From Candidatus Bathyarchaeota archaeon (GTDB lineage Archaea; Thermoproteota; Bathyarchaeia; RBG-16-48-13; GCA-020355125), in contig JAOZHB010000032.1 of the NCBI GenBank assembly GCA_026015035.1, forward strand, positions 1-34,280: a stretch of 34,280 bases of DNA, given 5' to 3'. The notes below the pieces were generated by a model. The model had not been told where the DNA came from, did not search any database, and saw nothing but the letters and a program-made list of their open reading frames with translations. Both the position numbers and the translations under genes were made by a program. Of this stretch, positions 2,405-33,986 are shown piece by piece. Positions within the stretch are counted from its first letter, which is position 1; every line of letters starts with the position of its first letter.

Positions 2405-2776
2405 ACGACCACTCGGGGAACCAGAAGAACAAGATGATTCTCTGGCTAGGCTGTTGTCCACATCATGTCAAGATACGTTCAGAGAACAGTAGCGGGCTGA
2501 AAAAGGAGTATCCATGAATCAAGGCGATAGTCCACCCAGAGTGTAGACCGGAGGTGAGTGCCATGGTCGATGAAGTTCTCAGATCTGACGCGCGCGCACA
2601 GTGGTTATAGGTTGTATCCCGGCGGTCAAGGTAATAACATATATCGTGGGACTTGGTGGACTATTAACCAAGAGAGTATTAATATATGATGGGCTAAGCC
2701 TGATGTTCACAGAACTCAAGGTCAGGAAAGACCCCAATTGTGAGCAGGGTTGTCAGTTAGGAGGCAAGGAATAAGA

Positions 2777-3076
2777 ATGGGCATTATAACGGTAAAACTT
2801 CCTTTATCGTATGTGCAGTCTTTTACCGATGACACGGACTTTGTGCAGTTAACACTGGACGTAGTTGAAGTACGCGGAAGCACAGTTGGCGAGTGCCTTA
2901 ACCATTTGGTTAAGCAGTTCCCCGACATGAAGAAACAGCTTTTCACTAAATCTGGTAACTTGTTCGATAATATTATCATCTCTGTTAATGGAGAGAGTGC
3001 CTACCCGGAGCAACTGGCTAAGTCAGTGAAAGATGGGGATGAGCTTAACATAGTATTCATGATTAGCGGTGGGTAA
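2777..3076 (+). CDS. MoaD/ThiS-family ubiquitin-like sulfur carrier
   Basis: Small beta-grasp-like protein ending in GG (ISGG). ATG at 2777 with AGGAGG at 2759-2764; the listed ORF start at 2750 is probably too early. Confidence 0.8.
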   Translation: MGIITVKLPLSYVQSFTDDTDFVQLTLDVVEVRGSTVGECLNHLVKQFPDMKKQLFTKSGNLFDNIIISVNGESAYPEQLAKSVKDGDELNIVFMISGG

Positions 3077-3107
3077 ACGCGCACTTCGCTTGGCATCCCA
3101 TTGAGCA

Positions 3108-3117
3108 ACGCGCGCGT
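3108..3117. repeat. GC palindrome ACGCGCGCGT
   Basis: Direct reading; ~30 nt past the MoaD-like gene. Confidence 0.85.
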
Positions 3118-3261
3118 GCTCCTGATAAGAACAGTAAAAACTGAAAAATGAAGCTAACTAGCTACCCTTTCGAAAGACGGCACGCCTATCAGCTAGCTAT
3201 TCGAATTCATATAACTATGAAACGGGTTATATGCAAGTTCAATCCATCTGAATCTATATAC

Positions 3262-3275
3262 TTTAGCTAGCTAAA
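3262..3275. repeat. TAGC-array element: perfect 14-bp palindrome TTTAGCTAGCTAAA
   Basis: Direct reading; stops at 4-nt spacing on both strands. Confidence 0.9.
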
Positions 3276-3646
3276 CCGTCCCAGGATATTGAGTTCAATA
3301 CGCTAAACGGTTGAACGCCATGAGGAGACAGGTCGACACACTCAACAGCACATGGTCCACGACTGCCTAAGCAGCTTCGAGCCATGCCAATCGAACCCCA
3401 CCTCATGTAAAACTAGCAAGAACGTCGACTTCGCATACATTGTTAGTATCTTTTGTAGTATCTGGGAACTGAATAAGGGAAGCAGATATTCTATTGTTCT
3501 ATTCACCTCTTGAAACCTTATTGAAATAGATGTACAATTAGGAGTGTAGCTAGCTTCTATGTGCAGAATTTCAATAACGCCTCGCTAACCATAGTAGGTC
3601 TTATATGGGTCTTGTCCTCGTTTTTTGGTTAAGGAGGACTTTACTT

Positions 3647-5311
3647 TTGAGAGGAGGGCAAATAGTAGCGAAAATCCTGAAGATTGAAGGAACCGACTTT
3701 GTCTCCCACTACCCCAGTGTTGGTAGTGTTATCGGGGACGTAGCAGATGAGGGCGTCAGAGTACTAACGACGCGACATGAGAGAACCGCCATAGCAATGG
3801 CAGATGCTTATACGAGATATTCGATGGGACATAAGCACGGGGTGGCCATGAGTCAAAGTGGTCATGCCGCTCACAACCTAATGGGCGGTATGGGACAGGC
3901 CTTCGATGACCTTTCCCCCATACTGATGATGCCCGCAGGCTCTCGAATGAACCAACTTGAGAAGAGGCGGTGGGACTCAGCTGCTAACTATACGTGTGTC
4001 ACCAAATGGAGCGCACGCCTTGATACTGCCGTGAACATCCCCGGTCTCATGAGTATGGCTTTCACTAGGTTGAGGACGGGAAGGCCAGCGCCCGTTCTTC
4101 TTGAGATGATGCGTGACGCCTTAATGGGGGAGATTCAAGATTCGGACTTCAACTACGAGCCTGTGAAAGGCTGGAAATACCAGGGAGATCCTCATGATGT
4201 TGAGATCGCTGTACGCGCGCTCCTGAATGCCAAGAGACCTGTGCTTTATGTAGGCGATGGCGTGCTTCGAGCGGATGCGGCTGAAGACTTTAGAGCGTTT
4301 GCTGAACTCGTTCAAGCACCGGTCATCACCAACTTAAAGGGTAAGAGTGCGTTTCCAGAGGATCATCCGCTCTCCGTGGGGTTACGCGGAAGGGCGCTCT
4401 GGATGTGCATGAGTCGGGCTGACCTCGTCTTTGGCATTGGAACCAGTCTGTCTGGTGCACATGGAACGCCGATACCACTTGGAAAGAAAATCGTGTTATG
4501 CAACATCGGCGAGTACGATGTCAACATGTATCAGAGAGCGAACCTCGCGGTCATCGGGGACGCGAAACTGGTGCTCCGTCAACTGATTGAGGAGGTCAAG
4601 AAGCAGACTAACGGCGGCGGCGTCAAGAGAAACGATGAACTTGAGACGGAAATTGCACGGGAAAAAAGGCTTCAATTGAAAGAATGGCTGCCCAAACTTA
4701 CCTCAAACAAGAAGCCCATTAACCCGTACCGGGTTATTTGGGATATGATGCATACGTTTGATAGAACGAATTTGGCTATCACTCATGAATCGGGTAGCCC
4801 GCGAGAACAGTTGGGCGCCATCTGGGAATCCCTTCTTCCGAGAAGTTTTCTAGGATGGGGACATACGACAAACCTGGGTTTCTCGTGGGGTGCAGCCATG
4901 GCTGCTAAGCTTATGTGGCCAGAGAAACTCTCCGTAAACTGGGTTGGAGACGCCGCGATGGGTCACAACGCGATGGACTTAGAGACGTCGTTGCGGGAAA
5001 ACCTACCGATATTGACCGTTCTTAGCAACAACTCAGGCTATGCCACCTACGGTCCAAGGGGACGGTCAAGGCTGCCCGCAGCCGTCAAGATGGTGTCTCC
5101 CAGTAACGTAATAAGCTATGCCACCATGGCTGAAGGGTTAGGCTGTTACAGCGAGAGAATTGAAGAGCCCGATGAGGTAATACCCGCATTGAAGCGGGGG
5201 ATCAAAGAAGTTAACGCAGGAAGACCCGCCCTCATTGAAGTGATAACCGACTGGGAGTCAACACGGATAAGCTACCAAATTCCGAACGAGTATCAACCTG
5301 GGAAGCTGTAA
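3647..5311 (+). CDS. Thiamine-diphosphate-dependent enzyme, acetolactate synthase/decarboxylase-like
   Basis: N-terminal catalytic-Glu context TRHERTAIAMADAY; ThDP motif GDAAMG...LSNN. Probable TTG start at 3647 with AAGGAGG at 3631-3637; ORF track start is 3605. Confidence 0.85.
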   Translation: MRGGQIVAKILKIEGTDFVSHYPSVGSVIGDVADEGVRVLTTRHERTAIAMADAYTRYSMGHKHGVAMSQSGHAAHNLMGGMGQAFDDLSPILMMPAGSRMNQLEKRRWDSAANYTCVTKWSARLDTAVNIPGLMSMAFTRLRTGRPAPVLLEMMRDALMGEIQDSDFNYEPVKGWKYQGDPHDVEIAVRALLNAKRPVLYVGDGVLRADAAEDFRAFAELVQAPVITNLKGKSAFPEDHPLSVGLRGRALWMCMSRADLVFGIGTSLSGAHGTPIPLGKKIVLCNIGEYDVNMYQRANLAVIGDAKLVLRQLIEEVKKQTNGGGVKRNDELETEIAREKRLQLKEWLPKLTSNKKPINPYRVIWDMMHTFDRTNLAITHESGSPREQLGAIWESLLPRSFLGWGHTTNLGFSWGAAMAAKLMWPEKLSVNWVGDAAMGHNAMDLETSLRENLPILTVLSNNSGYATYGPRGRSRLPAAVKMVSPSNVISYATMAEGLGCYSERIEEPDEVIPALKRGIKEVNAGRPALIEVITDWESTRISYQIPNEYQPGKL

Positions 5312-5451
5312 AACCCTTAATATCACCTATTCCCTTTTTCCCTTAGCTAACCTATCGCCTGAATAAGAAATCAATTTTGAAGTGTAAAGCTAGTTCACCT
5401 TTTAAGAAAAACCTTCGCTAAAAACAGGGTAGCTAACTCGATTGTCAAATA

Positions 5452-5458
5452 AAAAAAG
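5452..5458 (-). terminator. Possible oligo-T terminator of the minus-strand enolase-superfamily gene
   Basis: Seven consecutive A on + strand (T on minus) ~30 nt past the stop at 5486. Confidence 0.35.
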
Positions 5459-5481
5459 GAGAAAGATCGCGATTAACGCTG

Positions 5482-5492
5482 CTAGCTAGCTA
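5482..5492 (-). repeat. TAGC-array element (TAGCTAGCTAG on minus strand) overlapping the stop of the 5486-6709 gene
   Basis: Direct reading of gctagctagcta. Confidence 0.9.
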
Positions 5493-6709
5493 TCGAAGTA
5501 GGTTTCTCCTTCCTTGAGACGCTTTCTAACCGCCTGCTCATTCAGCTCTATTCCCATTCCTGGTTTATCTGGCACTTCAATGAAACCGTCCTTGACTGCG
5601 TTCTTCGGAAGCCCCTTCACTAGGCCATCCCACTCAGCACCGACGTTGGGTAACTCGAAAGCGATGTAGTTTTGAGGTAATGTAGCTGAAACTTGGATGA
5701 GTGCTGCGAGGCCTATGGGGCCGTCGCCTATCCCGTGGGGTGCAATCAGGATCCCGTGCATGTCGGCGTATTCCGCTACCCACTTGAGTTCCATGATGCC
5801 CCCGACGTCGCAGGGGTCTGGCCCAATTATGTCAACCGAATGCTTCTCTATTAGGCCTTGGAATCCTTGTCTGAGATAGATCTGTTCACCGGTGTGGATG
5901 GGTGTGCTGGTGCTCTGAGTCACGGTGCGGTAGATGTCGGGAAGGGTGTAGGGGGTGTAGTCTCCTGTGATCATGTCCTCTAGCCACATAACATTCAGTG
6001 GCTCCAAGGCCTTTGCAAGCCTAATGGCGTCAGGTACTTTCCAGCCGGGGCCACAGTCCAATGCAAGCCCTACCTCATCTCCCAGGGCCTCCTTTAATGC
6101 TTTCACGCAGGCTATTGTATGCTTCAATCCACGTTCAGTGGTGAGTCCCGTTTGATAGAGATAGGGTTGAGTCGGAGGTAAGGGCTGTTCTCCATAATGG
6201 TATTCAGGAAACGTGGAAGCCATCGTTGAATGAAAGCCGATGCCCCACTTCATGATGGTGAAGCCTCCAGGTAACTTCTTCCTTTCACTCGCGTGATTGT
6301 AATAATCTTCTGGGGACGTACCCTCCCGACGTAAGCCGCTGGGAGAATAGGGCATGTCTCCACCGTTGTAAACCCTCACTTTATCTCGGACTTTACCCCC
6401 CAAAAGTCTGTAAACCGGGACACCGGCCGTTTTTCCAGCGATGTCCCAAAGAGCCATCTCGATGGCGCTGACACTGCTTCCCCAGGGCTTGAAGGCTCCA
6501 AGGCGGCGTATTCGAAGCATCACTCTTTCCACGTTAGTGGGGTCCTGCTCAAGAATGTACCGTTTATAATACAGAACATGCGGTTTCAAATAAGAGTGTT
6601 TTGACGCCTCCACTTGGGCAAGGCCACTGATTCCTTCATCAGTGTCTATTCGTACCAATAGCGCGTGTAAATCGCTTATTACCATGCATTTAAGATTCGT
6701 TATCTTCAT
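5486..6709 (-). CDS. Enolase superfamily (mandelate racemase/RspA-ManD-like sugar-acid dehydratase)
   Basis: Enolase-superfamily organisation: N-terminal capping domain, ...WLEDMITGDY..., PIHTGEQIY, DIIGPDPCDVGGI, LIAPHGIGDGPIG. Confidence 0.88.
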   Translation of the reverse strand: MKITNLKCMVISDLHALLVRIDTDEGISGLAQVEASKHSYLKPHVLYYKRYILEQDPTNVERVMLRIRRLGAFKPWGSSVSAIEMALWDIAGKTAGVPVYRLLGGKVRDKVRVYNGGDMPYSPSGLRREGTSPEDYYNHASERKKLPGGFTIMKWGIGFHSTMASTFPEYHYGEQPLPPTQPYLYQTGLTTERGLKHTIACVKALKEALGDEVGLALDCGPGWKVPDAIRLAKALEPLNVMWLEDMITGDYTPYTLPDIYRTVTQSTSTPIHTGEQIYLRQGFQGLIEKHSVDIIGPDPCDVGGIMELKWVAEYADMHGILIAPHGIGDGPIGLAALIQVSATLPQNYIAFELPNVGAEWDGLVKGLPKNAVKDGFIEVPDKPGMGIELNEQAVRKRLKEGETYFDS

Positions 6710-6876
6710 CTGGGGCCTCTCACCTTCTTACTTACTATCTTATGACGTTTCCAAATAAGCTTTTCAGCTAGCTAGGTGTAGTTTAGACTGTTCTTTTGGT
6801 AAAAAAGTCATTTAGTTAGCCACTAAGCGTAACTAGCCAGTATTCGTACACAGGTTTTCTTGGTTACTTGTAAGAC

Positions 6877-6883
6877 TTATATA
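6877..6883 (+). promoter_or_regulatory. TATA-box-like promoter for the second ThDP enzyme gene
   Basis: TTATATA ~35-40 nt before ATG 6918, archaeal promoter spacing. Confidence 0.4.
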
Positions 6884-6917
6884 CCATGTTAAAAGAATAG
6901 TACGAAGGCGAATTAAA

Positions 6918-8543
6918 ATGAATGGAATAGAAGCAGTAGCAGAGATCCTTAGGCTTGAGGGAGTGCCATTCGTTGCGTGCGAAGGAGCCGCACCGATACC
7001 CGATTATTGCGCTGACGTTGGTCTCAGGATAATCAATTGCAGACAGGAGCGGGTGGCCGTCGATATAGCCCATGGCTACGCGAGGGTCAGTCAGAATCCA
7101 GGGGTTTGCTCGATGATGGGTACGGGAGGAATCGAGAATTCTTTCGCTGGCGTGGCTCATGCTTGGGAAGACCTTGTGCCGATCCTTGTGCTACCTGGTG
7201 GTATTAGTCGACTACGGAAAGGCAGTCGCGACTTTGAAGCCGTCAACAGTTATCTCAGGGTCACGAAGTGGGCTCAAAGCATCAACTTCACGTCACGCGT
7301 GCCAGAGATGATGCGCCGCGCCTTCACCTATTTGCGGTGTGGAAGGCCTGGGCCGGTGCTTCTGGAGCTTCTTGGAGAGCTGCGAAGTGAAGAACTCAGC
7401 AGTCCACTCGAATACAAGCCTGTTGCGGGTTGGAGACCGGCTGGAAACCCCCGTGACGTGGAGGTTGCAGTCAAGGCACTGTTGGCCGCGAAGAACCCAT
7501 TGATTTACGTGGGGACAGGAGTTTATCGCGCAAAGGCTGAAGAGGAATTGAAGACGTTTGTTGAACTCGTTCAACAGCCCGTCATGACTACGATGAACGC
7601 TAAGGGCGCGTTTCCAGAGAATCATCCCTTGTCTGTGGGCTTCATACGCGGGGAGCCAACGGAATATTTCCTGGGAAAAGCTGATCTGATCTTCGGCATA
7701 GGGGCGAGTTTCAATAGACACTTCACGGCATTGATGGTTCCCGCTGGCAAGAAAATCATCCAGACAGCGTGTATCGACGAATATGACCTTAATAGGGAGT
7801 ATCCAGTGGATCACGCTGTCATTGGTGACGCGAAACTGGTTCTCACACAGTTGATTGCCGAGGTGAAGAAGCAGGCTGGTGCGATACGGGAGAAAGGTGC
7901 GCTGAAAAAAGAGATTGCGGACGCCAAGGAGACGCACTTGCAGAACTGGATGCAGTGGCTGACATCAGATGAAAAACCGATCAATCCTTACAGAGTCATG
8001 TGGGATGTGATGAACACGATCGATCGGGATAAATCAATTGTGACACACGACGCGGGTAATCCCCGAGATCAATTGAGTTCGTTCTGGGAGACAACGGTTC
8101 CCCACGGCTATATCGGCTGGGGCCACGTTACCACTCTTGGCTTCGGGTTGGGAGCTGCAATCGGTGCCGCGCTCGCGATGCCTGATCGACTCTCCATTAA
8201 CTTCATCGGCGACGCGTCCATTGGTCAAGTAGGCATGGACATGGAGACTCCAGTCAGAACGAAGATCCCGATGATGACCATCATCCTCAACAACGGGCAA
8301 TACGGTGGATACGATCGTTATCACCGCCATCCAGAAACATACCTGGTCACCGGAGATTATACAAAGGTCGCTGAAGGATTAGGAGCCTACGCGGAGCGGA
8401 TTGATGAACCGGATGAAGTGATCCCTGCGGTCAAGCGTGGCATGAAGAAGGTTGACGCTGGAGGATATGCCGTCTTAGAAATGATGACTGCCAACTTCCC
8501 CAAGTTTCCGTCCTTCGCTGGTTATCCAGCGAGGAGAAGGTAG
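6918..8543 (+). CDS. Thiamine-diphosphate-dependent enzyme, paralog of 3647-5311
   Basis: CRQERVAVDIAHGYAR, GDASIG...ILNN ThDP motif; colinear similarity to the upstream paralog, e.g. AEGLGAYAERIDEPDEVIPAVKRGMKKV. Confidence 0.88.
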   Translation: MNGIEAVAEILRLEGVPFVACEGAAPIPDYCADVGLRIINCRQERVAVDIAHGYARVSQNPGVCSMMGTGGIENSFAGVAHAWEDLVPILVLPGGISRLRKGSRDFEAVNSYLRVTKWAQSINFTSRVPEMMRRAFTYLRCGRPGPVLLELLGELRSEELSSPLEYKPVAGWRPAGNPRDVEVAVKALLAAKNPLIYVGTGVYRAKAEEELKTFVELVQQPVMTTMNAKGAFPENHPLSVGFIRGEPTEYFLGKADLIFGIGASFNRHFTALMVPAGKKIIQTACIDEYDLNREYPVDHAVIGDAKLVLTQLIAEVKKQAGAIREKGALKKEIADAKETHLQNWMQWLTSDEKPINPYRVMWDVMNTIDRDKSIVTHDAGNPRDQLSSFWETTVPHGYIGWGHVTTLGFGLGAAIGAALAMPDRLSINFIGDASIGQVGMDMETPVRTKIPMMTIILNNGQYGGYDRYHRHPETYLVTGDYTKVAEGLGAYAERIDEPDEVIPAVKRGMKKVDAGGYAVLEMMTANFPKFPSFAGYPARRR

Positions 8544-8586
8544 TATCCAGTAGTGAGATGCTAGAGCTCTGTAGTTAACCCTCACC

Positions 8587-8609
8587 TTTTTTATTTTTTT
8601 TCTTTTTTT
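8587..8609 (+). terminator. T-rich archaeal-type terminator for the second ThDP enzyme gene
   Basis: ttttttattttttttcttttttt ~45 nt past stop 8543, between convergent genes. Confidence 0.6.
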
Positions 8610-9897
8610 ATTTACTCGATGACGAGGTAGTGGATAATCTACCTGGCTGTTGGGCCACTCCTAGCAAGTCCATCATCAAGAGGGCATATACCTTCGTGCT
8701 GTCTATGAGCCCATCGATAGTGACATACTCATTATAGGTGTGGGTGTTTCCTCCGCGACCAATGCCATAACTAACGAATGGTCGGTCAGGATACTTCAAA
8801 TTAAACCATCCGTGGTCGCTTGACCCCCCTGTCGGTCCTGTAGCAATAGTGGGTGTGAAGCCCAGCACCTTCGCCACAGACCTCTGAAGAGCCTTGACGA
8901 GCGGAGAGTCAGGTACCGACACGGAGAAATTCATCCACCTCTCGGGGTTCCAGGCTACTTCGGCATCAAACTCTGGGTCTTCCGTCTTCAACTCGTCTAC
9001 GATGGCCTGGATCTCTGTCTGACCACTTTCAAAGGTTTCGTGCTGTGGTATGAGCCTCCTATCTATTTGGACTGTGCATATGTCTGGGACGTTGTTCCCC
9101 GTGGTAAAGGCGTGGACTAGGTTAATCGAGAACCGTGCCCTGCCTTCGATCTCCACATCTCCAGCCTTAAACTTCAACCTTCGGTTGTTAACCTCGTGCC
9201 TCAGCTTCTCAAGACGTAAGATAAGCTTCGCACCTTGGACGGCGGCGTTCAAACCCTGATCATTGCGTCCCGTATGCTGTGTTCTTCCCTTCACGGTGAT
9301 CCTGTAGTAACCACGACCATTGCTTGCTATACCCATGGTTTTTCCGTCACCGCCGCCCCCTGCATATAGGAGATAATCTGTGTCGCAGAGGCCCTCATCC
9401 ACGACGTACTTCATACCCCGGTGGCCGCCGAACTCCTCGTCGCAGACAAAGGCAAAGACGATGTCTCCGTTTAGAGTCACCCCCGCATCCTTTATCGCCT
9501 TTATAGCAAACAACAAGGGTGGTATCGGGAACTCATGATCGTTAACCCCACGCCCATATATCCGGTTGCCTACAATGGCTCCGCTGAAGGGTCCGTAAGT
9601 CCATTTCGTAATATCCCCCGCAGGTACCGTATCGTAGTGGGCGTAAACGGTGAGGGAAGGCTTACCCGTTTTACCGTAATAATGCCCCATCACGTTTGGT
9701 CTATCCACGATCTGTTGTACAATTCTTACGTCATCCAGGTTGAACTTCGCGGCTTCCTTGACAAGAAACTCGCCTTTCTCTTTTTCTTCACCCGAATAGC
9801 TGGGTATTTGAACAAGCTTCTGCATTAAAGCTACAATCTCGTCCCTGGATTGGTCTATCAGTTTAATAACACTTTGTTCAAGTACAGATAAGGGCAT
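8608..9897 (-). CDS. M20-family metallopeptidase/deacylase (ArgE/DapE/ACY1-like)
   Basis: VYAHYDTVPAG, GRGVNDHEFP, FVCDEEFGGHRG, SSDHGW motifs. Confidence 0.88.
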   Translation of the reverse strand: MPLSVLEQSVIKLIDQSRDEIVALMQKLVQIPSYSGEEKEKGEFLVKEAAKFNLDDVRIVQQIVDRPNVMGHYYGKTGKPSLTVYAHYDTVPAGDITKWTYGPFSGAIVGNRIYGRGVNDHEFPIPPLLFAIKAIKDAGVTLNGDIVFAFVCDEEFGGHRGMKYVVDEGLCDTDYLLYAGGGGDGKTMGIASNGRGYYRITVKGRTQHTGRNDQGLNAAVQGAKLILRLEKLRHEVNNRRLKFKAGDVEIEGRARFSINLVHAFTTGNNVPDICTVQIDRRLIPQHETFESGQTEIQAIVDELKTEDPEFDAEVAWNPERWMNFSVSVPDSPLVKALQRSVAKVLGFTPTIATGPTGGSSDHGWFNLKYPDRPFVSYGIGRGGNTHTYNEYVTIDGLIDSTKVYALLMMDLLGVAQQPGRLSTTSSSSK

Positions 9898-16774: not shown

Positions 16775-18679
16775 GTGGAAAACAATTATTGTACAAGGTT
16801 TAGGTGTTTCAATATGACCGATAAGGAAGAAGTCGTTAAGAAACTACCTGCGAACGAGTCGAAGCGAACCTTTCTAAAGGAACACCCCACGGCCCAAGGA
16901 GGGGTTGCGGAGGACGAATTAACCTTGGTATCATCCCCTCCTCTCTCAGCCAGGTCTAGCCCGGAAATCGTGTCCGTAGAGAACTGGGGTCAGGCTTTCG
17001 TGGAGACAACTGTGCGTTGCGGCGTAAAGTACTGGTTCGTCAATTCGGGTACAGATTGGCCGGTCTTCATCGACGCCATTGCGAAAAGGCATGCTCTCGG
17101 AAGAGAGTGGCCCAAGCTGTTGACCGTTCCTCATGAGTATGTCGCAACCAGCATGGCTATGGGCTACACCCAAGTTACCAATGAGCCCCAGATCGCTGGG
17201 TATCATGTCACCGTGGGAACCTACAACGCTCTCGGAGCCATCGTGAATGCTTTCACGGGGCGGATTCCCATCCTCCTCTTCGCTGGGAGGCGATCGATAA
17301 CCAAGGAGGGCTTCCCGGGGACCGATAAGGGGCCCATCGCTCAAGAGTCGACGGATCAGGCTGGTCCTCTGAGGGAATACATAAAGTGGGACTACGAGAT
17401 TAAAATGCTGGAGCACATCCCCCAGTTGATTCAAAGGGGCCTACAAATAGCGAAGACCGAGCCCAAGGGCCCGGTGTACCTCACTATCCCCAACGAACTG
17501 GCGATGATGGAAGCCAGCGAGATCACGATTCCCCCACAAGAATTGTATAGGCCAGCTGCACCCCCCCATGGAAACCCCTCTGCTACGATGCAGGCAGCAG
17601 AATTGCTGGTAGAGGCGGAGAACCCGTATATCATCACTCGATTTCTTGGAGCCAACCCTGCCGCCGTCGACCAGCTCGTACGTTTCGCTGAACTCTTGGC
17701 GATACCGGTCTCTCGAGCCATCAACGGATACATGAACTTCCCGAACACGCACCCCCTCGCTACCTCGATCTCCCTTGACGACGCTGACGTTATCTTCACC
17801 ATCGACACGCCTTCTCCTTGGAGAGGCTCATATATCCCGAACCCCGATGCGAAGTACATCAACCTCAGCCCCATGCCCCTCCGCATCCGACCCTACCCCA
17901 TGGCTGGCCACTATCCAGCTGACATCAACATCACTGGCGATCCAGCGACGACGCTCAACACTCTCTACCAGGTTACCTCTCACGTGATCTCCCGAAACCC
18001 AGATAAATTGATGGCGGTCGAGAAGAGGTTAGAGAAATTCAGGACTCTCCAAACTGCTGCAAGGAAGAAAGCGGTGGAGGATGCGATGAAGGTGAAGAAC
18101 GATAAACCCATCGACCGCAAATGGCTCGAATACTGCATCAGTCAAGTCATGAATGACGATACCATAGTCGTTGGCCGCTCCGCAGCTTCCTACATAGAGT
18201 ACACGAAGCCCGGAACCTATTTTGGCAGTTATCCCGCAGGATCCCTCGGCGACTCACTTGGACAAGCCCTCGGTGTTAAGTTGGCAGCGCCAGACAAGAC
18301 CGTCATCTGTGGGATAGGTGATGGATCTTATATATACGGCGTACCTACCGCAGCCCACTTCACGTCTGCCAAGTACCATCTTCCCGTCCTCTTCATAGTG
18401 TATAACAACCAATGCTGGCGCGCCGTCAGGGGAACCCTCTTACGGGAGTATCCCAATGGCTGGGCGATACGAACGAACAGCCGAATTGGACAAGATTTGA
18501 CTTTAGCGGATGGCGAATCGGCACCCCACTATGAGCTAAATTCTGTAGCCTCAGGCGGCTATGGTGTGATTGTTGAAGACCCCGCTAGACTCCCTGAAGC
18601 TTTACAGGATGCCTTACACGCCGTCAAAGTCGAGAAAAGGCAAGCCCTCCTCAACGTCGTCATCAAGTATGCTACTTAG
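16775..18679 (+). CDS. Thiamine-pyrophosphate-requiring enzyme, acetolactate synthase-like (third, divergent copy)
   Basis: VPHEYVATSMAMGY, GDGSYIYG...IVYNN ThDP motif. Alternative start ATG at 16814 (MTDKEE). Confidence 0.85.
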   Translation: MENNYCTRFRCFNMTDKEEVVKKLPANESKRTFLKEHPTAQGGVAEDELTLVSSPPLSARSSPEIVSVENWGQAFVETTVRCGVKYWFVNSGTDWPVFIDAIAKRHALGREWPKLLTVPHEYVATSMAMGYTQVTNEPQIAGYHVTVGTYNALGAIVNAFTGRIPILLFAGRRSITKEGFPGTDKGPIAQESTDQAGPLREYIKWDYEIKMLEHIPQLIQRGLQIAKTEPKGPVYLTIPNELAMMEASEITIPPQELYRPAAPPHGNPSATMQAAELLVEAENPYIITRFLGANPAAVDQLVRFAELLAIPVSRAINGYMNFPNTHPLATSISLDDADVIFTIDTPSPWRGSYIPNPDAKYINLSPMPLRIRPYPMAGHYPADINITGDPATTLNTLYQVTSHVISRNPDKLMAVEKRLEKFRTLQTAARKKAVEDAMKVKNDKPIDRKWLEYCISQVMNDDTIVVGRSAASYIEYTKPGTYFGSYPAGSLGDSLGQALGVKLAAPDKTVICGIGDGSYIYGVPTAAHFTSAKYHLPVLFIVYNNQCWRAVRGTLLREYPNGWAIRTNSRIGQDLTLADGESAPHYELNSVASGGYGVIVEDPARLPEALQDALHAVKVEKRQALLNVVIKYAT

Positions 18680-21305: not shown

Positions 21306-22379
21306 TTAGAGTTTTGTGCCGCAGTCTCCACAGAATTTTGTGCCTTGGGGGCTGGTTTTCCCGCATTGTGCACATGTCACTGATTCAGGGTTCAAAGCGG
21401 ATCCACAGCTCCCACAGAACTTCATGGTATTTGGCATTTGAGCGCCACATTGGGGACATTCAATGGTGGGTGTGGGGGCTAGACTTGTTCCGCAGTTTCC
21501 GCAGAACTTGTTGCGGGCTGTGTTTTGAAATCCACACTTTTTACAGCTAATCGTTTCTTGGGTTGGTTGGGGTGCTGTGGTTTGCGATGGCTGCATGGAC
21601 TCTGCGAGGCGTGCACCCATAGCCAGTCCAATTCCTGCCCCGACCCCTGCACCAGCGGCTCCGCCGCCTGGGGGCAGTTCGGACGCTGTCTCTTTCATGT
21701 ATTGCATCATCATGGCTTGTTGACCAATTCCTGATGCGAAGCGTCGAGCTTCTTCCGGAATTTTCACGCCTTCAAAGATGCAGTCAATTACTTTTAACCC
21801 AATCCGTGCAACTTCGTCGCTAATGGTGAGTCCAATCTTGTCGGTGGTTTCATCAAGGTTCGTGACGATTGTGGAGATATCGTGATGACCCATCTCGTCA
21901 ATGACCCGTTCGTTTACAAAGCCTCGGACATACTTTTCAATGTCTTGAGTGGAGCTAACGCCGCGGTTTCCAAAGAATTCAATGACAAACAGCTTCGGGT
22001 CTTCAACTTGAAAGAGTAAATAACCGTAGAATCCCATTTCCGCTTGGTAGGCTATCGGGCCACTGGGAGCGGAGTATGCTTGTCCACCAAAGTTTCCACG
22101 AAACTGGCTGTTGCTAACGAAGATTACTTCACAGTCAAAGATGTCGCCGATGATGCGTAAGGCGCGTAAAGCGCCTGTCAAGAGAGGGATGTTGGCGCTT
22201 GTTATGGTGTGTCTTCCCGGTCCGAAGACATCATAGGCTTTCCCGTCTCGAAAGAAGACAGCCCACTGGTTTTCCATGACAATTACTTGGCTTCCGTACT
22301 TCAAGGACAGGTTGGGAAATCGGCGGGCAATGTCATCGGGTCGCGCGTCATCCCATGCTACTCGTTCAATTAAAGGCAT
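21306..22379 (-). CDS. SPFH-domain (YdjI/COG4260-like) protein with three C-terminal zinc ribbons
   Basis: MPLIERVAWDDARPDDIARRFPNLSLKYGSQVIVMENQWAVFFRDGK N-terminus; three CxxC...FCGxCG ribbons. Confidence 0.85.
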   Translation of the reverse strand: MPLIERVAWDDARPDDIARRFPNLSLKYGSQVIVMENQWAVFFRDGKAYDVFGPGRHTITSANIPLLTGALRALRIIGDIFDCEVIFVSNSQFRGNFGGQAYSAPSGPIAYQAEMGFYGYLLFQVEDPKLFVIEFFGNRGVSSTQDIEKYVRGFVNERVIDEMGHHDISTIVTNLDETTDKIGLTISDEVARIGLKVIDCIFEGVKIPEEARRFASGIGQQAMMMQYMKETASELPPGGGAAGAGVGAGIGLAMGARLAESMQPSQTTAPQPTQETISCKKCGFQNTARNKFCGNCGTSLAPTPTIECPQCGAQMPNTMKFCGSCGSALNPESVTCAQCGKTSPQGTKFCGDCGTKL

Positions 22380-22391
22380 GTTTTCACCTTC

Positions 22392-22922
22392 TTACATTAG
22401 GGGACGAAACAGATTCTCCCTTTCATTCCATTTATCTTCTAAGTCATACAATAACTTTTTGACCTGATTTAGGTCTTCTCGTGCTTCTGCCCAATTTTCG
22501 TTATCCACGTTTTGACTTGTCTTCTGGACGGCTTCGTCCATACCCGCGATGTCCTGACTCAGGGTCTTATCAAAGTTGAAGACGCGGGCAAGTTCATTTT
22601 CGTTGATCTGGCCTTTTCGATCCCACAATCCAGCGTATCCATAATTTGCACGACGGATCTTTGCCATGACGCGATCAAGGACTTGAAGCACTCTCTTCAG
22701 GTCACGCTTTGAGAGTCTAGCATCCGCGTCTAAAACGTTAAGATAAACCCCCTCCCAGGTGTGACGCATATCACGCAGTGTGCGATATTGGGTGTCACGC
22801 ATTTGTTTGTCGAGTTCTCGTAAATCCTCTTTCGTCGCGAACCCACGTAAAAATAAGTTCTGAAGCTTAGACACGATACCTTGTCTCGCATTCACACTCT
22901 CTATTGTGTCACGTTCTGCCAA
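22392..22922 (-). CDS. Conserved-looking all-helical hypothetical protein
   Basis: 176-aa ORF, heptad-like charged helices; starts 13 nt upstream of the SPFH gene, likely co-transcribed. Confidence 0.75.
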   Translation of the reverse strand: MAERDTIESVNARQGIVSKLQNLFLRGFATKEDLRELDKQMRDTQYRTLRDMRHTWEGVYLNVLDADARLSKRDLKRVLQVLDRVMAKIRRANYGYAGLWDRKGQINENELARVFNFDKTLSQDIAGMDEAVQKTSQNVDNENWAEAREDLNQVKKLLYDLEDKWNERENLFRPLM

Positions 22923-23017
22923 ACTTCATCTCCTCGAACAGTTATTATACATATTTTACTGCTTGTAAGTTATTTATACATGTTACCTTGAGCTAACCGT
23001 TCACGACGTCCTCGCTA

Positions 23018-24463
23018 TCATAGAGCGATCGCTGCTCCACAGTATCTGCAATTAACCGATGTCTGCCCCCGATATATCATTTCGTTGTACGGGGCGCCAC
23101 AGATAGAACAGGCAACTAGCTCGGGGGTCTCCTGGTCCGACTCGGACTCTGGAGAGGCGGCGGCTAACTCTTCTTCGACTTGACCTGAAACAATAAGATT
23201 GTAGCCTTGCGTCAACCAATCTGCTTCATGTCCCTTGGTGTCAAACTTCATCTCCGGAACTCCGCTTTCCGATGCGAATTCAACGAATAACCCGGCGCCT
23301 TTTAACAAGCCAACTCTGCCTTTCGTCAGCTGGGTGACCATTCCAATGGGTTTATGAACAGCGACTTCTCGCACGATTTTTTTCTCAGTGACAATGAAGA
23401 ACCTTTTTTTCAGCACAACTTCCTTTTCCTGCTCAAAAATGAAGCGGAGGTTGGTCAAGGTGATGACGCCCTCCGAATCGTTATTCAGGTCTTTTGCCTT
23501 GGTGGCTATGATCGGGGTCTCTCCTTCCATCCAGGGAAACGAGGCGTCAGAGACTAGGGTCACTGTGCTTTCCGCCATGCGAAGATCTTGGTCAATGTTT
23601 TGATATCGTTTCTCTATGGGCGTAAGTGAACTAGCTATCTGACTCTGGATATTGGACATATTTCGGCGTAATTCTGAGAGTCCTAATTCGATGTCTCGGA
23701 GGTTTCCAAGATCGTAGTCGGAACGTCCTTGTTTTTGAGTGAGTATGCGTTGCAGATCCCGTGCTCTTAAGTGAACTGCTTCACTCCTTTGACTTGTAAC
23801 CGCTCTAAGATTTGAGCTAAGTGTAGCCCACGTTTCTGAAAGTGAGACTTGATCCGCCTCCAAGTGAGTTAATGCTCGGTAGTTACCTTGTCGAACGCGG
23901 TTAATCCGAGTAGGTAGGCTATGCACTCGATCGTTGAGACTTTCAATGCTGTGGGGTATATTATTGGTCTGCTGGCTGATGGAAGAGATCTCAGAGAATA
24001 AAGCGCTCATTCTATTAGTGTACATGAGCCGTTGCGAGTCATCGGTCACCATCTGATTTTCTCTTAGTTGAGTAGGCGTAGCGCGCGTGCGTGCGAATGG
24101 AGTTTGTGGACGACGGGTTTTTTGTTTCTCTATTCGATAATCAGAGAAGCGTTCCGCAGCATCCTTGTTAATTTTGAGTAGTTCAGCGATCACAACATTT
24201 GAAAGACGTGCTGAGGACACTTCTTTCTTTCCCTCAACGTCTTCACATAACTCACAAACCCGTACGCTTTTCGTAATTGTATTTGTGACTTGACTGGCCT
24301 GCCTTCGAGATGCCCCCGCTTTTAATACGCTTAAGCGCATTTTTGATCTATTGAACGCTTCCAACCGTCCATCGCTTTTTCGCACCCATCTTTTTTCTGC
24401 TACACGCGAACGCTTCTTTACCTTACTCATAGAACCCTTACCCAAGAAATAATGCAAAGACAC
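23018..24463 (-). CDS. ATP-cone / coiled-coil / PH-GRAM-like / zinc-ribbon multidomain protein
   Basis: N-terminal VRKSDGRLEAFNRSKMRLSVLKAGAS...SDYRIEK resembles an ATP-cone; helical centre; ITLTNLRFIFEQEKEVVLKK... PH/GRAM-like; C-terminal CSICGAPYN..VNCRYCG. Confidence 0.75.
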   Translation of the reverse strand: MSLHYFLGKGSMSKVKKRSRVAEKRWVRKSDGRLEAFNRSKMRLSVLKAGASRRQASQVTNTITKSVRVCELCEDVEGKKEVSSARLSNVVIAELLKINKDAAERFSDYRIEKQKTRRPQTPFARTRATPTQLRENQMVTDDSQRLMYTNRMSALFSEISSISQQTNNIPHSIESLNDRVHSLPTRINRVRQGNYRALTHLEADQVSLSETWATLSSNLRAVTSQRSEAVHLRARDLQRILTQKQGRSDYDLGNLRDIELGLSELRRNMSNIQSQIASSLTPIEKRYQNIDQDLRMAESTVTLVSDASFPWMEGETPIIATKAKDLNNDSEGVITLTNLRFIFEQEKEVVLKKRFFIVTEKKIVREVAVHKPIGMVTQLTKGRVGLLKGAGLFVEFASESGVPEMKFDTKGHEADWLTQGYNLIVSGQVEEELAAASPESESDQETPELVACSICGAPYNEMIYRGQTSVNCRYCGAAIAL

Positions 24464-25908: not shown

Positions 25909-26997
25909 CTAATCCTCAGATTTTATGCTTGTCAGAGCCTTACTGATTTGCGTAATCCCTTTATCGTAGTACGATTTTGCCTCTTTGAATAGTTCCACGA
26001 CTTGAGTGCTTATCTCCGAACTTGAAGTTTTAATCCTCCGTCCCCTTGACACAAAGATTGTATGGATCTGGTTCAATGCTTGAGCCTCATTTTTGAAGCA
26101 TTGTGCTGCTAGTACAAGATTCTCTCCAGCTTCTGGGTAATTAAAAGCTATCTCCAACAAGAATGTGGAAGCGGCTTGATGCGTTGTGCGATAAACGCTT
26201 AGGCAATACGTGTCTCCCATTTCGGGTATTTTTAGTTCTTGTAAACCGAATTTATGAATCCACCAACCATACGTGTTTGATCCTTGCTGGATTTTCCATT
26301 GAGTGCTTTCACTATAATCGTCTATCTGGTTTTGTGAGTCATGGGCATGTCTTACTGCTTCTTCTAACGCTGCAATCTCTGATTTTTCCGCATCAAACTC
26401 TTTAATTTTCTCTCCGACAGCATACTCTTTCCCGTAGCCACATCTCGAAATACTTTTAGTGGCATAATTCTCATCCTGTACATCATAGCTATCAAGTCCT
26501 GATGAACCTCCTCTACCAAGAAACTTTTTGGTCTTTTCCTCAAATCCGCAAACTACATTATATTCACATACATCGAAGGCTCCCCACACTATCACTGGAT
26601 TCCCCAGTTTAATTTGATTTTTTATAAAGGGTATTGCTTGCTCTATCCTTTTTTTATTCGCTGAGATCCATTCTGGATCTTCCCAACCTTGAAAACTTTC
26701 AAAAAGCGGGGTTTTTTCACTTAACGTCTCAGCATCATAACCCAAAAGCTCGATTAGTTCTTCAGTACTCATAGCAAAACTGCAAGTCGGTGCACATGGA
26801 CATGGGCCAGCTAATCTAAATGCCGCTCCCGATATTCCTTGTATGTACGCCGTGGAGTAATCTTCTCCGTGATAATTCAAAACGATTCTTACAGCTTCAA
26901 ATAAAGGCTCATCGACTCTGAATTTGTCTATTCCTTCGATCCATACTTTTCCTTCCTTTGTCTTTACACTCTCTTTCAAATTTTTCATGTCCTGCAT
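25909..26997 (-). CDS. Hypothetical protein with C39/BtrH-like (papain-fold) N-terminal region
   Basis: ISGAAFRLAGPCPCAPTCSF followed by NPVIVWGAFDVCEYNVVCGFEEKTKKFLGRGG; inferred from pattern only. Confidence 0.45.
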   Translation of the reverse strand: MQDMKNLKESVKTKEGKVWIEGIDKFRVDEPLFEAVRIVLNYHGEDYSTAYIQGISGAAFRLAGPCPCAPTCSFAMSTEELIELLGYDAETLSEKTPLFESFQGWEDPEWISANKKRIEQAIPFIKNQIKLGNPVIVWGAFDVCEYNVVCGFEEKTKKFLGRGGSSGLDSYDVQDENYATKSISRCGYGKEYAVGEKIKEFDAEKSEIAALEEAVRHAHDSQNQIDDYSESTQWKIQQGSNTYGWWIHKFGLQELKIPEMGDTYCLSVYRTTHQAASTFLLEIAFNYPEAGENLVLAAQCFKNEAQALNQIHTIFVSRGRRIKTSSSEISTQVVELFKEAKSYYDKGITQISKALTSIKSED

Positions 26998-29593: not shown

Positions 29594-30865
29594 ATGGTTC
29601 TCATGGGCATGACGATTAGTGAAAAAATTTTAGCCACCGCTTCAGGGAAAGAATCGGTATCGGCTGGTGAAATCGTTTGGGCCGAGCCGCGTACTATTTT
29701 GGCCCATGACATTTCTGGGGTCGGCGCCAGCCTCTACATTAAAGAACACTTTGGAGAAGCAAAAGTTAAGTATCCTGATAGGATCGTGTTGGTAGAGGAT
29801 CACTACGTACCGTGCAGAAACAAGGACGCAGCGAACAACATCAATATTCTTGAACAATTCGCAGCAGACAACGGCATATCGCGATATCACCGATGGGGGC
29901 TGGAAACCAATTACGGTGTATGTCATGTACTGCTCCCTTACGAGGGACATGTCCTTCCCGGAACCTTAGTGATAGGTGGAGATTCCCATACCTGTACCCA
30001 CGGTGCAATGGGTGCTTTAGCAACAGGTTGCGGAGAGATCGATATCGGTAACGCCATGATTACTGGCGATTTATGGTTTCGTGTTCCCGAAACCAAGCAA
30101 TTCGTCCTTGAAGGAACGCCAGATGATGTCACCATGGCAAAGGACGTGATTCTTCACATAATCGGTACCGTGGGGAGCAGTGGCTCCATCTATAAAACTG
30201 CGGAGTTTACAGGATCCTATGTGACGGACCTTAATATCGATGAACGACTCACGCTTTCTAACATGGCTGTCGAGATGGGGGCAAAAAGCGGTCTGATCGC
30301 CACCGACCAAAAAACCATAGACTTCGTAAAAGCAAGAACACGTGAATCCTTCGACGTTGTGAGAAACGATGAGAACGCCGACATTGAACACCAATTATTT
30401 GATTTAGATGATTTAGGACCGATCGTTGCAACACCATATTCCCCTGAAAACGCTGTGCCAGTAGAAGACGTGGAGGGAACCCCCATCGACCAAGCCGTCA
30501 TATGTGCATGTACTGGCGCGAAATACACGGATCTAAAAGCCGCTGCCGAGCTTTTAGAGGGTAAAACCGTAAACGTTAGGACGGCCGTTTTACCCGCTAC
30601 CCAAGAGATCTACCGGCAGGCACTTACCGAAGGCTTATTGGAGATCTTTGCGAATGCAAATATCACCGTTGGACCGCCTACCTGCGGACCATGTTTAGGG
30701 GGCAACATGGGCGTCTTAGGTGACGGTAAAGTCTGCATCAGTACCTCTAATAGGAACTTCGTTGGCCGCATGGGAAGCAAGACCTCGATGACCTACTTAG
30801 CGTCGCCTCGAACGGTTGCAGCATCGGCCGTAAAAGGTTATATCTTCGATCCGAGACGAATTTAG
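29594..30865 (+). CDS. Aconitase/isopropylmalate isomerase-family large subunit, diverged
   Basis: GGDSHTCTHGAMGALATGCGEIDIGNAM; cluster Cys contexts ICACTGAKYTDL and PTCGPCLGG. Confidence 0.88.
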   Translation: MVLMGMTISEKILATASGKESVSAGEIVWAEPRTILAHDISGVGASLYIKEHFGEAKVKYPDRIVLVEDHYVPCRNKDAANNINILEQFAADNGISRYHRWGLETNYGVCHVLLPYEGHVLPGTLVIGGDSHTCTHGAMGALATGCGEIDIGNAMITGDLWFRVPETKQFVLEGTPDDVTMAKDVILHIIGTVGSSGSIYKTAEFTGSYVTDLNIDERLTLSNMAVEMGAKSGLIATDQKTIDFVKARTRESFDVVRNDENADIEHQLFDLDDLGPIVATPYSPENAVPVEDVEGTPIDQAVICACTGAKYTDLKAAAELLEGKTVNVRTAVLPATQEIYRQALTEGLLEIFANANITVGPPTCGPCLGGNMGVLGDGKVCISTSNRNFVGRMGSKTSMTYLASPRTVAASAVKGYIFDPRRI

Positions 30866-30886
30866 CAGTCGAACAGAAGGGACCTG

Positions 30887-31435
30887 ATGAGTATGGAACG
30901 AGTGCTGAAGGGACGTGCGTACGAGCTCAGTGAGGACGTTCGCGACAACGTAAACACGGATATCATTATCCCGCCAGAAAACCTCATGCGGTTTGACCGT
31001 GAATATTTAGGACAGCACGCAATGGATGGCTTACCGAGTTTGGAGTCGGGAGCTTTCGCCGCCCAAGTCGGTGAAGGGTTCAATATCCTCGTTGCCGGCG
31101 AAAATTTTGGCTGTGGTTCCATGCGAGCCCATGCCGTCTATGCCTTGGGTGGGGCCGGTGTAAAAGCCATCATCGCAACATCCTACGCACGGACATTCTA
31201 CCGAAATGCTGTGAATTGCGGGTATTTAGTGCCCCTCCTCGTCGAGCCTGATGCTGTCAAACTAATCCATTGGGGCGACCGACTGGAAGTCGATTTAACT
31301 AACAACGAAGTAAGGAATGTATCCAAAAATGAAGTCTATTCCACAAAACCGTTCCCGAAAGTGATTGGGGACATCATTGACGTTGGCGGCTTAGCTGAAT
31401 ACAACAAACGCAGATTACTGGCCAAGAAGGCTTAG
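30887..31435 (+). CDS. Aconitase/isopropylmalate isomerase-family small subunit, diverged
   Basis: DNVNTDIIIPPENL, ENFGCGSMRAHAVYAL, YARTFYRNAVNCGYL. Confidence 0.87.
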   Translation: MSMERVLKGRAYELSEDVRDNVNTDIIIPPENLMRFDREYLGQHAMDGLPSLESGAFAAQVGEGFNILVAGENFGCGSMRAHAVYALGGAGVKAIIATSYARTFYRNAVNCGYLVPLLVEPDAVKLIHWGDRLEVDLTNNEVRNVSKNEVYSTKPFPKVIGDIIDVGGLAEYNKRRLLAKKA

Positions 31436-31455
31436 GCCAACCCCTGCTCAAGTAG

Positions 31456-31465
31456 AGCGCGCGCT
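31456..31465. repeat. GC palindrome AGCGCGCGCT
   Basis: Direct reading; in the gap before the DgoD-like gene. Confidence 0.9.
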
Positions 31466-31496
31466 AGACGATGAACGGTAAACGAGGTAAGAATAC

Positions 31497-32618
31497 ATGA
31501 AAATTACGCGGTTGGAAACGTTTCTGGTTAAACCCCGTTGGTTGTTTTTAAAGGTTCACACAGATGAGGGTTTGATTGGATTAGGGGAACCACTTCTTGA
31601 AGGCCGTGCATTGACCTGTGCAACAGCGGTTTCCGAACTCGAACCCTATCTTATCGGCAAAGACCCAACAAGGGTCATGCACCACTGGCAGGCAATGTAT
31701 CGACATGCCTTTTACCGCGGTGGACCGATCCTGACCAGTGCCCTTTCAGGCGTGGAGCAAGCACTATGGGATCTCACTGGAAAGTCGTTAGGCGTTCCTG
31801 TCTATAAATTACTCGGCGGACCACTGCGAAGTCGGATTCGATGTTATGCGCCGGCTCGTGCCGACTCTGAAGAAAGTGCGGTGAAAAACGTTAAGGCTCT
31901 AGTGAAGGAAGGTTACACTGCTATTAAAACGGGTGTCCCTGGTAGGCAAAGGAGTCGAATTATAGAGACAAAGGATTTTGTGGATCGCGCAGTCTCAATC
32001 TATGCAGCTATGAGAGAGGCGGCTGGTCCAAAAGTTGATATTGCCATAGACTTTCATGGAGCAGTAAATCCTCAAACATCTCTACTTTTAATAAAGGCAT
32101 TGGAGCCATACCAGCCCTTTTTCATAGAGGAGCCTGTTCAGTGCCAGAACGTTGATGTTTTAGCAGAATTAGTGCGTAAGACCCACATTCCTATAGCTAC
32201 TGGTGAACGGGTCTTTACAAAATGGGGATTCCGAGAACTTTTGGAGAAGAGAGCAGCTTCTATACTGCAGCCAGATCTATCCCATGCTGGGGGAATTTTT
32301 GAGTGTCGGATTATCGCTGGTATGGCTGAGAGTTACTATGTTGGGATAGCACCCCACTGTCCCCTGGGGCCAATAGCGAGAGCTGCATGCTTACATCTTG
32401 ATGCGTCAATCCCCAACTTTGTGATTCAGGAGAGGGGATCCTTTGGTGTTGGCTATTTGAAAGAGCCGTTTCTTCACAAGAAAGGGTTCTTACCGCTTCC
32501 GAAGAACCCTGGCTTAGGCATTGAATTAGATGAAGATGCGATGGAGGATAAGATTGGACATAATTGGTTAAACAGAGAATCATATAGTGCAGATGATGAA
32601 TCAGTCATCGATTGGTAA
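31497..32618 (+). CDS. Enolase superfamily galactonate dehydratase-like (DgoD-like)
   Basis: DFHGAVNPQTSLLLIKALEPYQPFFIEEPVQCQN, TGERVFTKWGFRELLE, QPDLSHAGGIFECR, IAPHCPLGPIA. Confidence 0.87.
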   Translation: MKITRLETFLVKPRWLFLKVHTDEGLIGLGEPLLEGRALTCATAVSELEPYLIGKDPTRVMHHWQAMYRHAFYRGGPILTSALSGVEQALWDLTGKSLGVPVYKLLGGPLRSRIRCYAPARADSEESAVKNVKALVKEGYTAIKTGVPGRQRSRIIETKDFVDRAVSIYAAMREAAGPKVDIAIDFHGAVNPQTSLLLIKALEPYQPFFIEEPVQCQNVDVLAELVRKTHIPIATGERVFTKWGFRELLEKRAASILQPDLSHAGGIFECRIIAGMAESYYVGIAPHCPLGPIARAACLHLDASIPNFVIQERGSFGVGYLKEPFLHKKGFLPLPKNPGLGIELDEDAMEDKIGHNWLNRESYSADDESVIDW

Positions 32619-32966
32619 TTATGCCTCCATGCGTGTAGATGAGATTAATCGCATAAGTAACTTCCAACTCCACTCAATTTTTTACTGGATACAGATTGAT
32701 CCTCCCCCGATTTTATACTAGTGTTGTCATCAAGAAACTTTCTATTGGGAATAAGTAACAGCTAGTTAGGTTAGAGTATACTAGAAGACGTTTCCACTCA
32801 TGTAGTCGGTGCAGTATGCAGCGAATTCGAAAGGCAAGTGTTATTTATCGACCCTTATTATGCCCATAATTGCTACTGCTTTGCATTCTGAAGTAAATGG
32901 AATGAATCTGGCTGGTATAAAGAACGTTTATGTGTCGGGAGTCGGCACATATTTGATACGGAGAGT

Positions 32967-33986
32967 ATGGCTTTGATGAAAATCTCGATTCAATCAAGAC
33001 CTCCTACAGATAGCTACTTGAGATGGGCTTCACAGATGGGAGTAGACTGCTTAGACGCTGTGTCTTTACCGGGAGTCAATCAGGTGGGCGCTGCCGGAGG
33101 GCAAGGATGCGCTGACCTAGAAAAGCTTCTGAAATTGAGGCGTTGGATCCGATCATTCGGCCTTGACATGAATCGCGCTAGCTTACCAAACGTTAGCAAG
33201 TTTATGCTGGGTCAACCCGGCGGCGACGAGCAGGTCGAGAACGCGTGCAAAACTTTGAAGGTCTTGGGCGAGGCCCAGATCCCTATAGCTCGACCCACCT
33301 TCGCCACCAGCTCTGGGGTGTGGCCGGAGACCCATGGAGTGCCTCGGGAGTGGCCCACGACAATACCGATGCGTAGCGTGCATAGAGGGGGATACTTGAT
33401 GCGAGGATTCGACTTGGCAGCGATGAGAACTCATATGGCGGAGACGGGGGTTGATCGGACAGAAGTACTGCCTGAGGCGTGGTGGTCTCGGGTGGAGGAG
33501 TATTATGGGCGGCTCATTTCCCTCGCCGAAGAGTGTGGTGTGAAGATCGCGATGCACCCATCCGACCCGCCAATGCCCGACGCCCCTTTCAGCGGCCTGG
33601 GATACCATCACGTCCTTGATCTGCGTCCCAGCCCGAACAATGGATTACTCTACTGTGTGGGCACAAGATGTGAGGCAGGAGGCACCCGAATGGTCTTGGA
33701 TGAGATCAATCACTTCGGCAGGAAGGGCAAGATCTTTCTAGTGCACTTCAGAAACGTCAGGGGCAGCCTCGCATCAACCGGGGCCTTCGAAGAGGTTCTC
33801 CTCGACGATGGCGATATGAATATGTTCGAAATCCTCTTGGCGCTGCAGAAGATCGGATACGACGGCTGCTTAAACCCGGACCACACCCCGATATTAAAGG
33901 GGGGCACTCCTGAAAGACGGATGGCTTTGTCGTACTCGGTTGGTTACCTTAAGGCGCTCCTAGCCGCATTGGCAGCGCTTCCATAA
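32967..33986 (+). CDS. Mannonate dehydratase (UxuA)-like TIM-barrel enzyme
   Basis: AMHPSDPPMPDAPF, YCVGTRCEAGG, FLVHFRNVRGS...FEEVLLDDGDMNM, LNPDHTP. Confidence 0.82.
   Translation: MALMKISIQSRPPTDSYLRWASQMGVDCLDAVSLPGVNQVGAAGGQGCADLEKLLKLRRWIRSFGLDMNRASLPNVSKFMLGQPGGDEQVENACKTLKVLGEAQIPIARPTFATSSGVWPETHGVPREWPTTIPMRSVHRGGYLMRGFDLAAMRTHMAETGVDRTEVLPEAWWSRVEEYYGRLISLAEECGVKIAMHPSDPPMPDAPFSGLGYHHVLDLRPSPNNGLLYCVGTRCEAGGTRMVLDEINHFGRKGKIFLVHFRNVRGSLASTGAFEEVLLDDGDMNMFEILLALQKIGYDGCLNPDHTPILKGGTPERRMALSYSVGYLKALLAALAALP

Follow-up and report, generated by a model that had tools for sequence, protein, structure and literature searches.

Among described systems the closest counterpart of the locus analyzed here is the membrane-maintenance complex PspA-YdjGHI of Bacillus subtilis, in which PspA depends on YdjI, together with YdjG and YdjH, for its recruitment to the membrane (PMC8581546). 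YdjI is an SPFH protein that has no membrane segment and carries a low-complexity region and a C-terminal zinc finger (PMC8581546), and in the operon it is accompanied by a helical partner and by membrane and zinc-ribbon proteins (PMC8581546, PMC9239133). In a survey of 915 archaeal genomes more than half were devoid of any Psp component (PMC9239133).

The window, by which we mean the whole stretch of 34,280 nucleotides analyzed, is a complete contig (C62) of a 2.06-Mb genome that is 88% complete, and the named relatives used in the comparison are Bathyarchaeota. The list of open reading frames gives three minus-strand genes in a row, in agreement with an earlier note on this DNA, and we term them P1, P2 and P3. 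P1 (23018..24463, minus strand), which combines an ATP-cone, a three-helix rod, a PH/GRAM-like domain and a zinc ribbon, comprises 481 amino acids when read from the GTG at 24463; since the relatives also open with MSKVKK or MSKKRK the true start is probably the ATG at 24430, which would give a protein of 470 amino acids. P2 (22392..22922, minus strand) is an all-helical partner protein of 176 amino acids with a TTG start, and P3 (21306..22379, minus strand) is a YdjI-type SPFH protein of 357 amino acids with three zinc ribbons. The gap between P2 and P3 is 12 nt, one less than the earlier note had counted, and between P1 and P2 there are 95 nt. This longer gap holds the TATA-box-like sequence GTATAAATA (22971..22979, minus strand), a match to the consensus and a putative promoter, which occurs once in the window with 0.19 copies expected per window; the relative L025 has the same TATA-box-like motif at the same place between P1 and P2. 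Being 12 nt apart and preceded by this box, P2 and P3 look like one transcript, and because the box lies in the gap P1 may have a transcript of its own.

P3 is of a type that is already known from the YdjI-type SPFH scaffold operons. Pfam places an SPFH (Band_7_1) domain at residues 24-213 (21741..22310, minus strand; PF13421, E 3.5e-22) and three zinc ribbons at residues 279-357 (21309..21545, minus strand; PF12773, E 2.3e-20, and PF13240 in three stretches), which bears out the previous description of this gene. The zinc ribbons are preceded by a Gly/Ala-rich low-complexity stretch. With its SPFH domain, its C-terminal zinc ribbon and no membrane anchor P3 has the features that define the YdjI type, and a stretch hydrophobic enough for a membrane helix was found in none of P1, P2 and P3.

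P2 is all-helical in the AlphaFold model (pLDDT 79.9), as the earlier note had read it, and neither its fold (Foldseek) nor its sequence has a noteworthy counterpart in the PDB. Going by profile matches, its only named relative appears to be a distant one, the LIMLP_15305 family of Leptospira (NF047596). The window protein matches this profile over its C-terminal half with an E-value of 2.8e-9 and 37.1 of 210 bits, below the cut-off, and so do all of the 11 close P2 proteins, the best at 6.2e-11 and likewise far under the curated cut-off; from these matches we conclude that a distant bacterial relative exists. The one open-access paper that names LIMLP_15305 mentions it only as the neighbour of a non-coding RNA. 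Six control genomes also gave matches to NF047596, with E-values of up to 1; these lay below the cut-off, and we did not take them for homologues. An assignment of P2 as a PspA/ESCRT-III protein found no support from Pfam, PDB sequences or Foldseek, and matches of P1 and P2 to WWC1, FlaC, DNA_pol3_delt_C and DUF4363 were below the Pfam cut-off and taken as coiled-coil noise.

A search of the phylum detected P2 in 139 of 398 Thermoproteota genomes, once per genome. We examined 88 P2 loci, drawn from the phylum search and the named collection. All 88 have an SPFH-zinc-ribbon gene near P2, and in 85 of them it is the next gene downstream, in the same orientation. P2 and P3 are thus a conserved two-gene core and P1 is an occasional partner. 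We found no description of P2-P3 as a widespread archaeal unit in the open-access literature. Other partners recur as well: a zinc-ribbon protein of about 250 amino acids is encoded at 41 of the 88 loci, in most cases directly before P2, and 23 loci have a downstream gene for a small membrane protein, which shows weak similarity to LiaF-TM (E 0.0035, below cut-off). In Thermoproteota the unit more often takes the form of the zinc-ribbon protein of about 250 residues, P2, P3 and then the small membrane protein (L107:5027-7709, L108, L103, L105 and others). At two further loci the zinc-ribbon protein beside P2-P3 contains an Arrestin_N-like domain (L099:4565-6067, E 2.8e-5; L095:2721-3290, E 0.0029; both below cut-off), which recalls sorting adaptors.

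The ATP-cone is a nucleotide-sensing domain whose usual home is in the enzymes of DNA-precursor synthesis. In P1 it occupies residues 26-116 (24116..24388, minus strand) and is supported by Foldseek, by phmmer matches to NrdR chains and by Pfam (PF03477, E 8.6e-8, 33.1 bits against a cut-off of 25.8, residues 27-113), where the match covers positions 3-86 of the 88 of the profile, i.e., the whole domain. In the AlphaFold model of P1, which was built on 21 relatives (mean pLDDT 87.1, pTM 0.60), the cone is followed by three long helices forming a rod (residues 130-304; 23552..24076, minus strand), a PH-like barrel closed by a C-terminal helix (residues 317-426; 23186..23515, minus strand) and a C-terminal zinc ribbon. 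The CxxC...CxxC pattern of the ribbon is evident from the sequence (residues 448-481; 23021..23122, minus strand) and is kept in most relatives. When compared with the PDB by Foldseek this single model matches both ATP-cones, namely that of NrdB (5olk, E 2.4e-4) and E. coli NrdR (9fxk, rmsd 2.9 A, 31% identity), and PH folds, namely the DH-PH of Trio (E 6.3e-5), the PH domain of Vps36 (2cay, TM 0.56 by target) and that of Sin1 (3voq, TM 0.63). Pfam has no PH or GRAM match in the sequence of P1 itself and recognises GRAM (PF02893) in 9 of the 21 members of the P1 alignment, the best at 3.6e-6. The reading of this protein in the earlier note as ATP-cone, long helical region, PH/GRAM-like segment and zinc ribbon therefore holds in all four parts.

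The ATP-cone of P1 contains the motif V27-x-K29-x-x-G32-x-x-E35-x-F37-x-x-x-K41. In the NrdR of S. coelicolor the exchanges V48A, K50A, E56A and K62A lower nucleotide binding (PMC12176259), and an alignment to E. coli NrdR shows that all four positions are retained in P1 as V27, K29, E35 and K41. Where K-R is found in many cones, both P1 and E. coli NrdR have K-S. With the contact residues retained, it is likely that P1 binds nucleotide. In the sampled genomes only four P1 proteins carry the cone, those of the window, L025, L029 and the genome G003 (L018). The fused cone of L025 keeps all four nucleotide-contact residues, that of L029 has I in place of V at the first contact position and that of L018 has Q at the position of E35. 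The four proteins form one clade in the P1 tree with full support (100/100), and a single fusion event is therefore the simplest account of how the cone joined P1. Free-standing ATP-cone proteins of about 90-110 amino acids are present in the relatives and could plausibly have been its source. Fusions of ATP-cones are widespread in these archaea: a relative (L013:778-1662) and the genome of the window (G000:C49:49508-49687) have a further ATP-cone fusion of about 300 amino acids, whose remainder resembles by eye a nuclease-type domain.

The fold and the nucleotide-contact residues are what P1 shares with the cones of ribonucleotide reductases (RNR) and NrdR; unlike in these the cone is fused to a helical rod, a PH domain and a zinc ribbon instead of an RNR or a DNA-binding zinc ribbon, and there is no catalytic domain. 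It could nevertheless be argued that the cluster regulates nucleotide pools or transcription, with zinc ribbons that bind nucleic acid, a cone that reads dATP/ATP and an SPFH protein that is a mere oligomeric base. ATP-cone and zinc ribbon together are the NrdR combination, P1 is similar to NrdR in sequence and fold, and the zinc ribbon of YdjG has been proposed to bind DNA (PMC9239133). However, P1 misses the NrdR equivalog model (N-terminal zinc ribbon and ATP-cone) by far, with 22.1 of 124.65 bits, its two domains stand in the reverse order and about 330 residues apart, and most P1 cores are without a cone. In addition no RNR gene lies nearby in the window, and the genome encodes a separate ATP-cone protein of RNR size elsewhere. 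We consider a regulator of this kind improbable, and P1 was not classed as an NrdR.

The linkage of P1 to the core is more variable than that between P2 and P3. P1 lies directly upstream of P2-P3 in seven loci (the window, L025, L029, L028, L031, L033 and L068), the last of which belongs to a genome outside the class and has P2 and P3 broken by apparent frame errors, while in 12 of the 19 P1 loci P1 is encoded away from P2-P3. The assumption that the three genes are conserved neighbours is thus correct for the recurring order but too strong for P1. Alternatively only P2-P3 might form a unit, beside which P1 would be a neighbour without functional ties; the location of P1 elsewhere in most P1 genomes and a separate TATA-like box in the 95-nt gap speak for this. 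Against this the order P1-P2-P3 is repeated in seven loci, one of them in another class, and genomes with P1 nearly always contain P2 too. Strong matches to the P1 core (rod, PH domain and zinc ribbon) occur in 10 of the 398 phylum genomes, and P2 is present in 9 of these 10 compared with 139 of 398 overall (Fisher p 4.5e-4, common ancestry ignored); among 61 close relatives 6 of the 8 with P1 also have P2 (p 0.016, again ignoring common ancestry). G003 has a cone-fused P1 and no detected P2, in a genome that is 86% complete and has masked stretches. The P1-core search also gave weak matches in 59 other genomes of the phylum; these correspond to coiled-coil or zinc-ribbon segments, and we did not score them as P1. 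We regard independence of P1 as unlikely. With the predicted folds and the recurring gene order the earlier note therefore withstood the tests that it had set for itself.

As to the comparison with Bacillus, P3 shares the layout of YdjI and stands likewise in an operon with a helical partner. The archaeal unit differs from the bacterial complex in several respects: the genome of the window is without PspA, which P2 does not resemble; other proteins take the place of the membrane proteins YdjG and YdjH, or these are missing; and P1 has no counterpart in Bacillus. A search for PspA (PF04012) gave no match in this 88% complete genome, with positive search controls, and the locus was accordingly not assigned to the Psp system. 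Eight phylum genomes have PspA above the cut-off and all of them are without P2. As only about 2.8 of the eight would be expected by chance to contain P2, its absence from the PspA genomes of the phylum sample is suggestive only. Given that PspA is absent here and P2 is missing from the PspA genomes, P2 sits where PspA would be.

The unit is, in our opinion, best read by analogy as a PspA-independent analogue of the PspA-YdjGHI complex, and we tentatively favour the view that the cluster represents a form of the widespread P2-P3 module peculiar to this lineage, in which P1 serves as a nucleotide-responsive adaptor. The soluble P3 would oligomerise into a membrane-associated scaffold and hold its partners by the zinc ribbons, and its helical partner P2 would be obligate and would correspond in position to the PspA next to YdjI in Bacillus. 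P1 could be an exchangeable adaptor that attaches to membrane lipid or to the scaffold through its PH domain and zinc ribbon, and whose N-terminal ATP-cone binds ATP/dATP and thereby alters the oligomeric state of P1, so that assembly or recruitment of the scaffold would track the adenine-nucleotide (energy or dNTP) level. Nucleotide-driven oligomerisation is the way in which the ATP-cones of NrdB (PMC5794259) and NrdR (PMC9110341) act. What speaks against this favoured reading is that a minority of P1 proteins have the cone, that P1-P3 are without a membrane segment and that P2 is unlike PspA in sequence and fold. The 12 P1 loci apart from P2-P3, the cone-fused P1 of G003 with no P2 detected and the Q of L018 at the position of E35 count against it as well.

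There is a real chance that the unit is a separate system in its own right, beyond the YdjI-type SPFH scaffold operons. It is possible, though doubtful, that P2-P3 are an undescribed PspA-independent archaeal membrane-maintenance system with interchangeable adaptors, of which the Bathyarchaeia adaptor with its ATP-cone couples the scaffold to ATP/dATP. If so, an ATP-cone would act on a membrane complex outside nucleotide metabolism, and the system would span about a third of Thermoproteota. With a YdjI-like scaffold and a helical protein the pair is a direct candidate for membrane upkeep in archaea without Psp, and the cone fusion, an ATP-cone moved into a non-enzymatic, membrane-type protein, offers a biochemical handle on it through nucleotide binding and oligomer state.

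A rather unlikely alternative is an archaeal protein-sorting or vesicle-like complex with a function related to ESCRT/adaptin, in which PH/GLUE-like and arrestin-like zinc-ribbon partners work together with an SPFH scaffold. Of the PH matches to single domains, the GLUE PH domain of Vps36/EAP45 comes closest to the P1 model, and the Arrestin_N-like partners at other P2-P3 loci would fit as well. Archaeal ESCRT-type loci have been reported to contain SPFH proteins with coiled coil and zinc ribbon, which P3 resembles as an SPFH protein with zinc ribbon, and proteins with zinc ribbon, coiled coil and PH domain such as the Asgard Znr_CC_PH_SB, whose domain vocabulary is shared by P1 (PMC10936438). 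The likeness is one of domain content, however, as the domain order differs and no steadiness box was detected here; at the loci read, neither Vps4 nor ESCRT-III was noticed among the genes next to the unit, and the PH-to-GLUE similarity is generic (TM 0.56). The statement of the earlier note that no system of this architecture has been described must be restricted, since the layout of P3 is that of YdjI (PMC8581546) and SPFH-coiled-coil-zinc-ribbon proteins are on record (PMC10936438). It stands for the P2-P3 pair and for P1 with an ATP-cone, which we likewise did not find described in the open-access literature; there, the combination of ATP-cone and SPFH led to unrelated phage work only.

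The earlier note had further suggested a nucleotide-responsive membrane stress or defence complex and had named enrichment near defence islands as a point to check. Our findings are consistent with a membrane scaffold that senses nucleotides; they lend no support to defence. A phage-triggered nucleotide-sensing membrane complex could be proposed only by analogy with SPFH proteins and nucleotide sensors, and bacterial PspA-type systems do respond to phage proteins (PMC9239133). PADLOC, run on P1-P3 and ten window genes, returned no match of weight, the best (E 9e-4) being to a helical stretch of P2, relatives of P2 were found in neither viral contigs nor plasmids, and P2 is single copy per genome over many families. 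Defence is thus very improbable. A viral origin was also discarded, as PHROGs gave only zinc-ribbon and NrdD-cone matches and a weak one to P2.

The surrounding genes of the window encode carbon-metabolism enzymes, an archaeal Nre protein, transporters and a D-aminoacyl-tRNA deacylase, a metabolic neighbourhood that likewise speaks against a defence island. Another gene of the window (25909..26997, minus strand) encodes a 362-residue protein for which Pfam gave no family at E 0.1. The stretches 569-9897 and 29594-33986 contain an aldehyde ferredoxin oxidoreductase, thiamine-diphosphate enzymes (three when 16775-18679 is included), two enolase-superfamily enzymes and aconitase-like and UxuA-like proteins, and the genes of these two stretches look like a pathway of sugar-acid or organic-acid catabolism.
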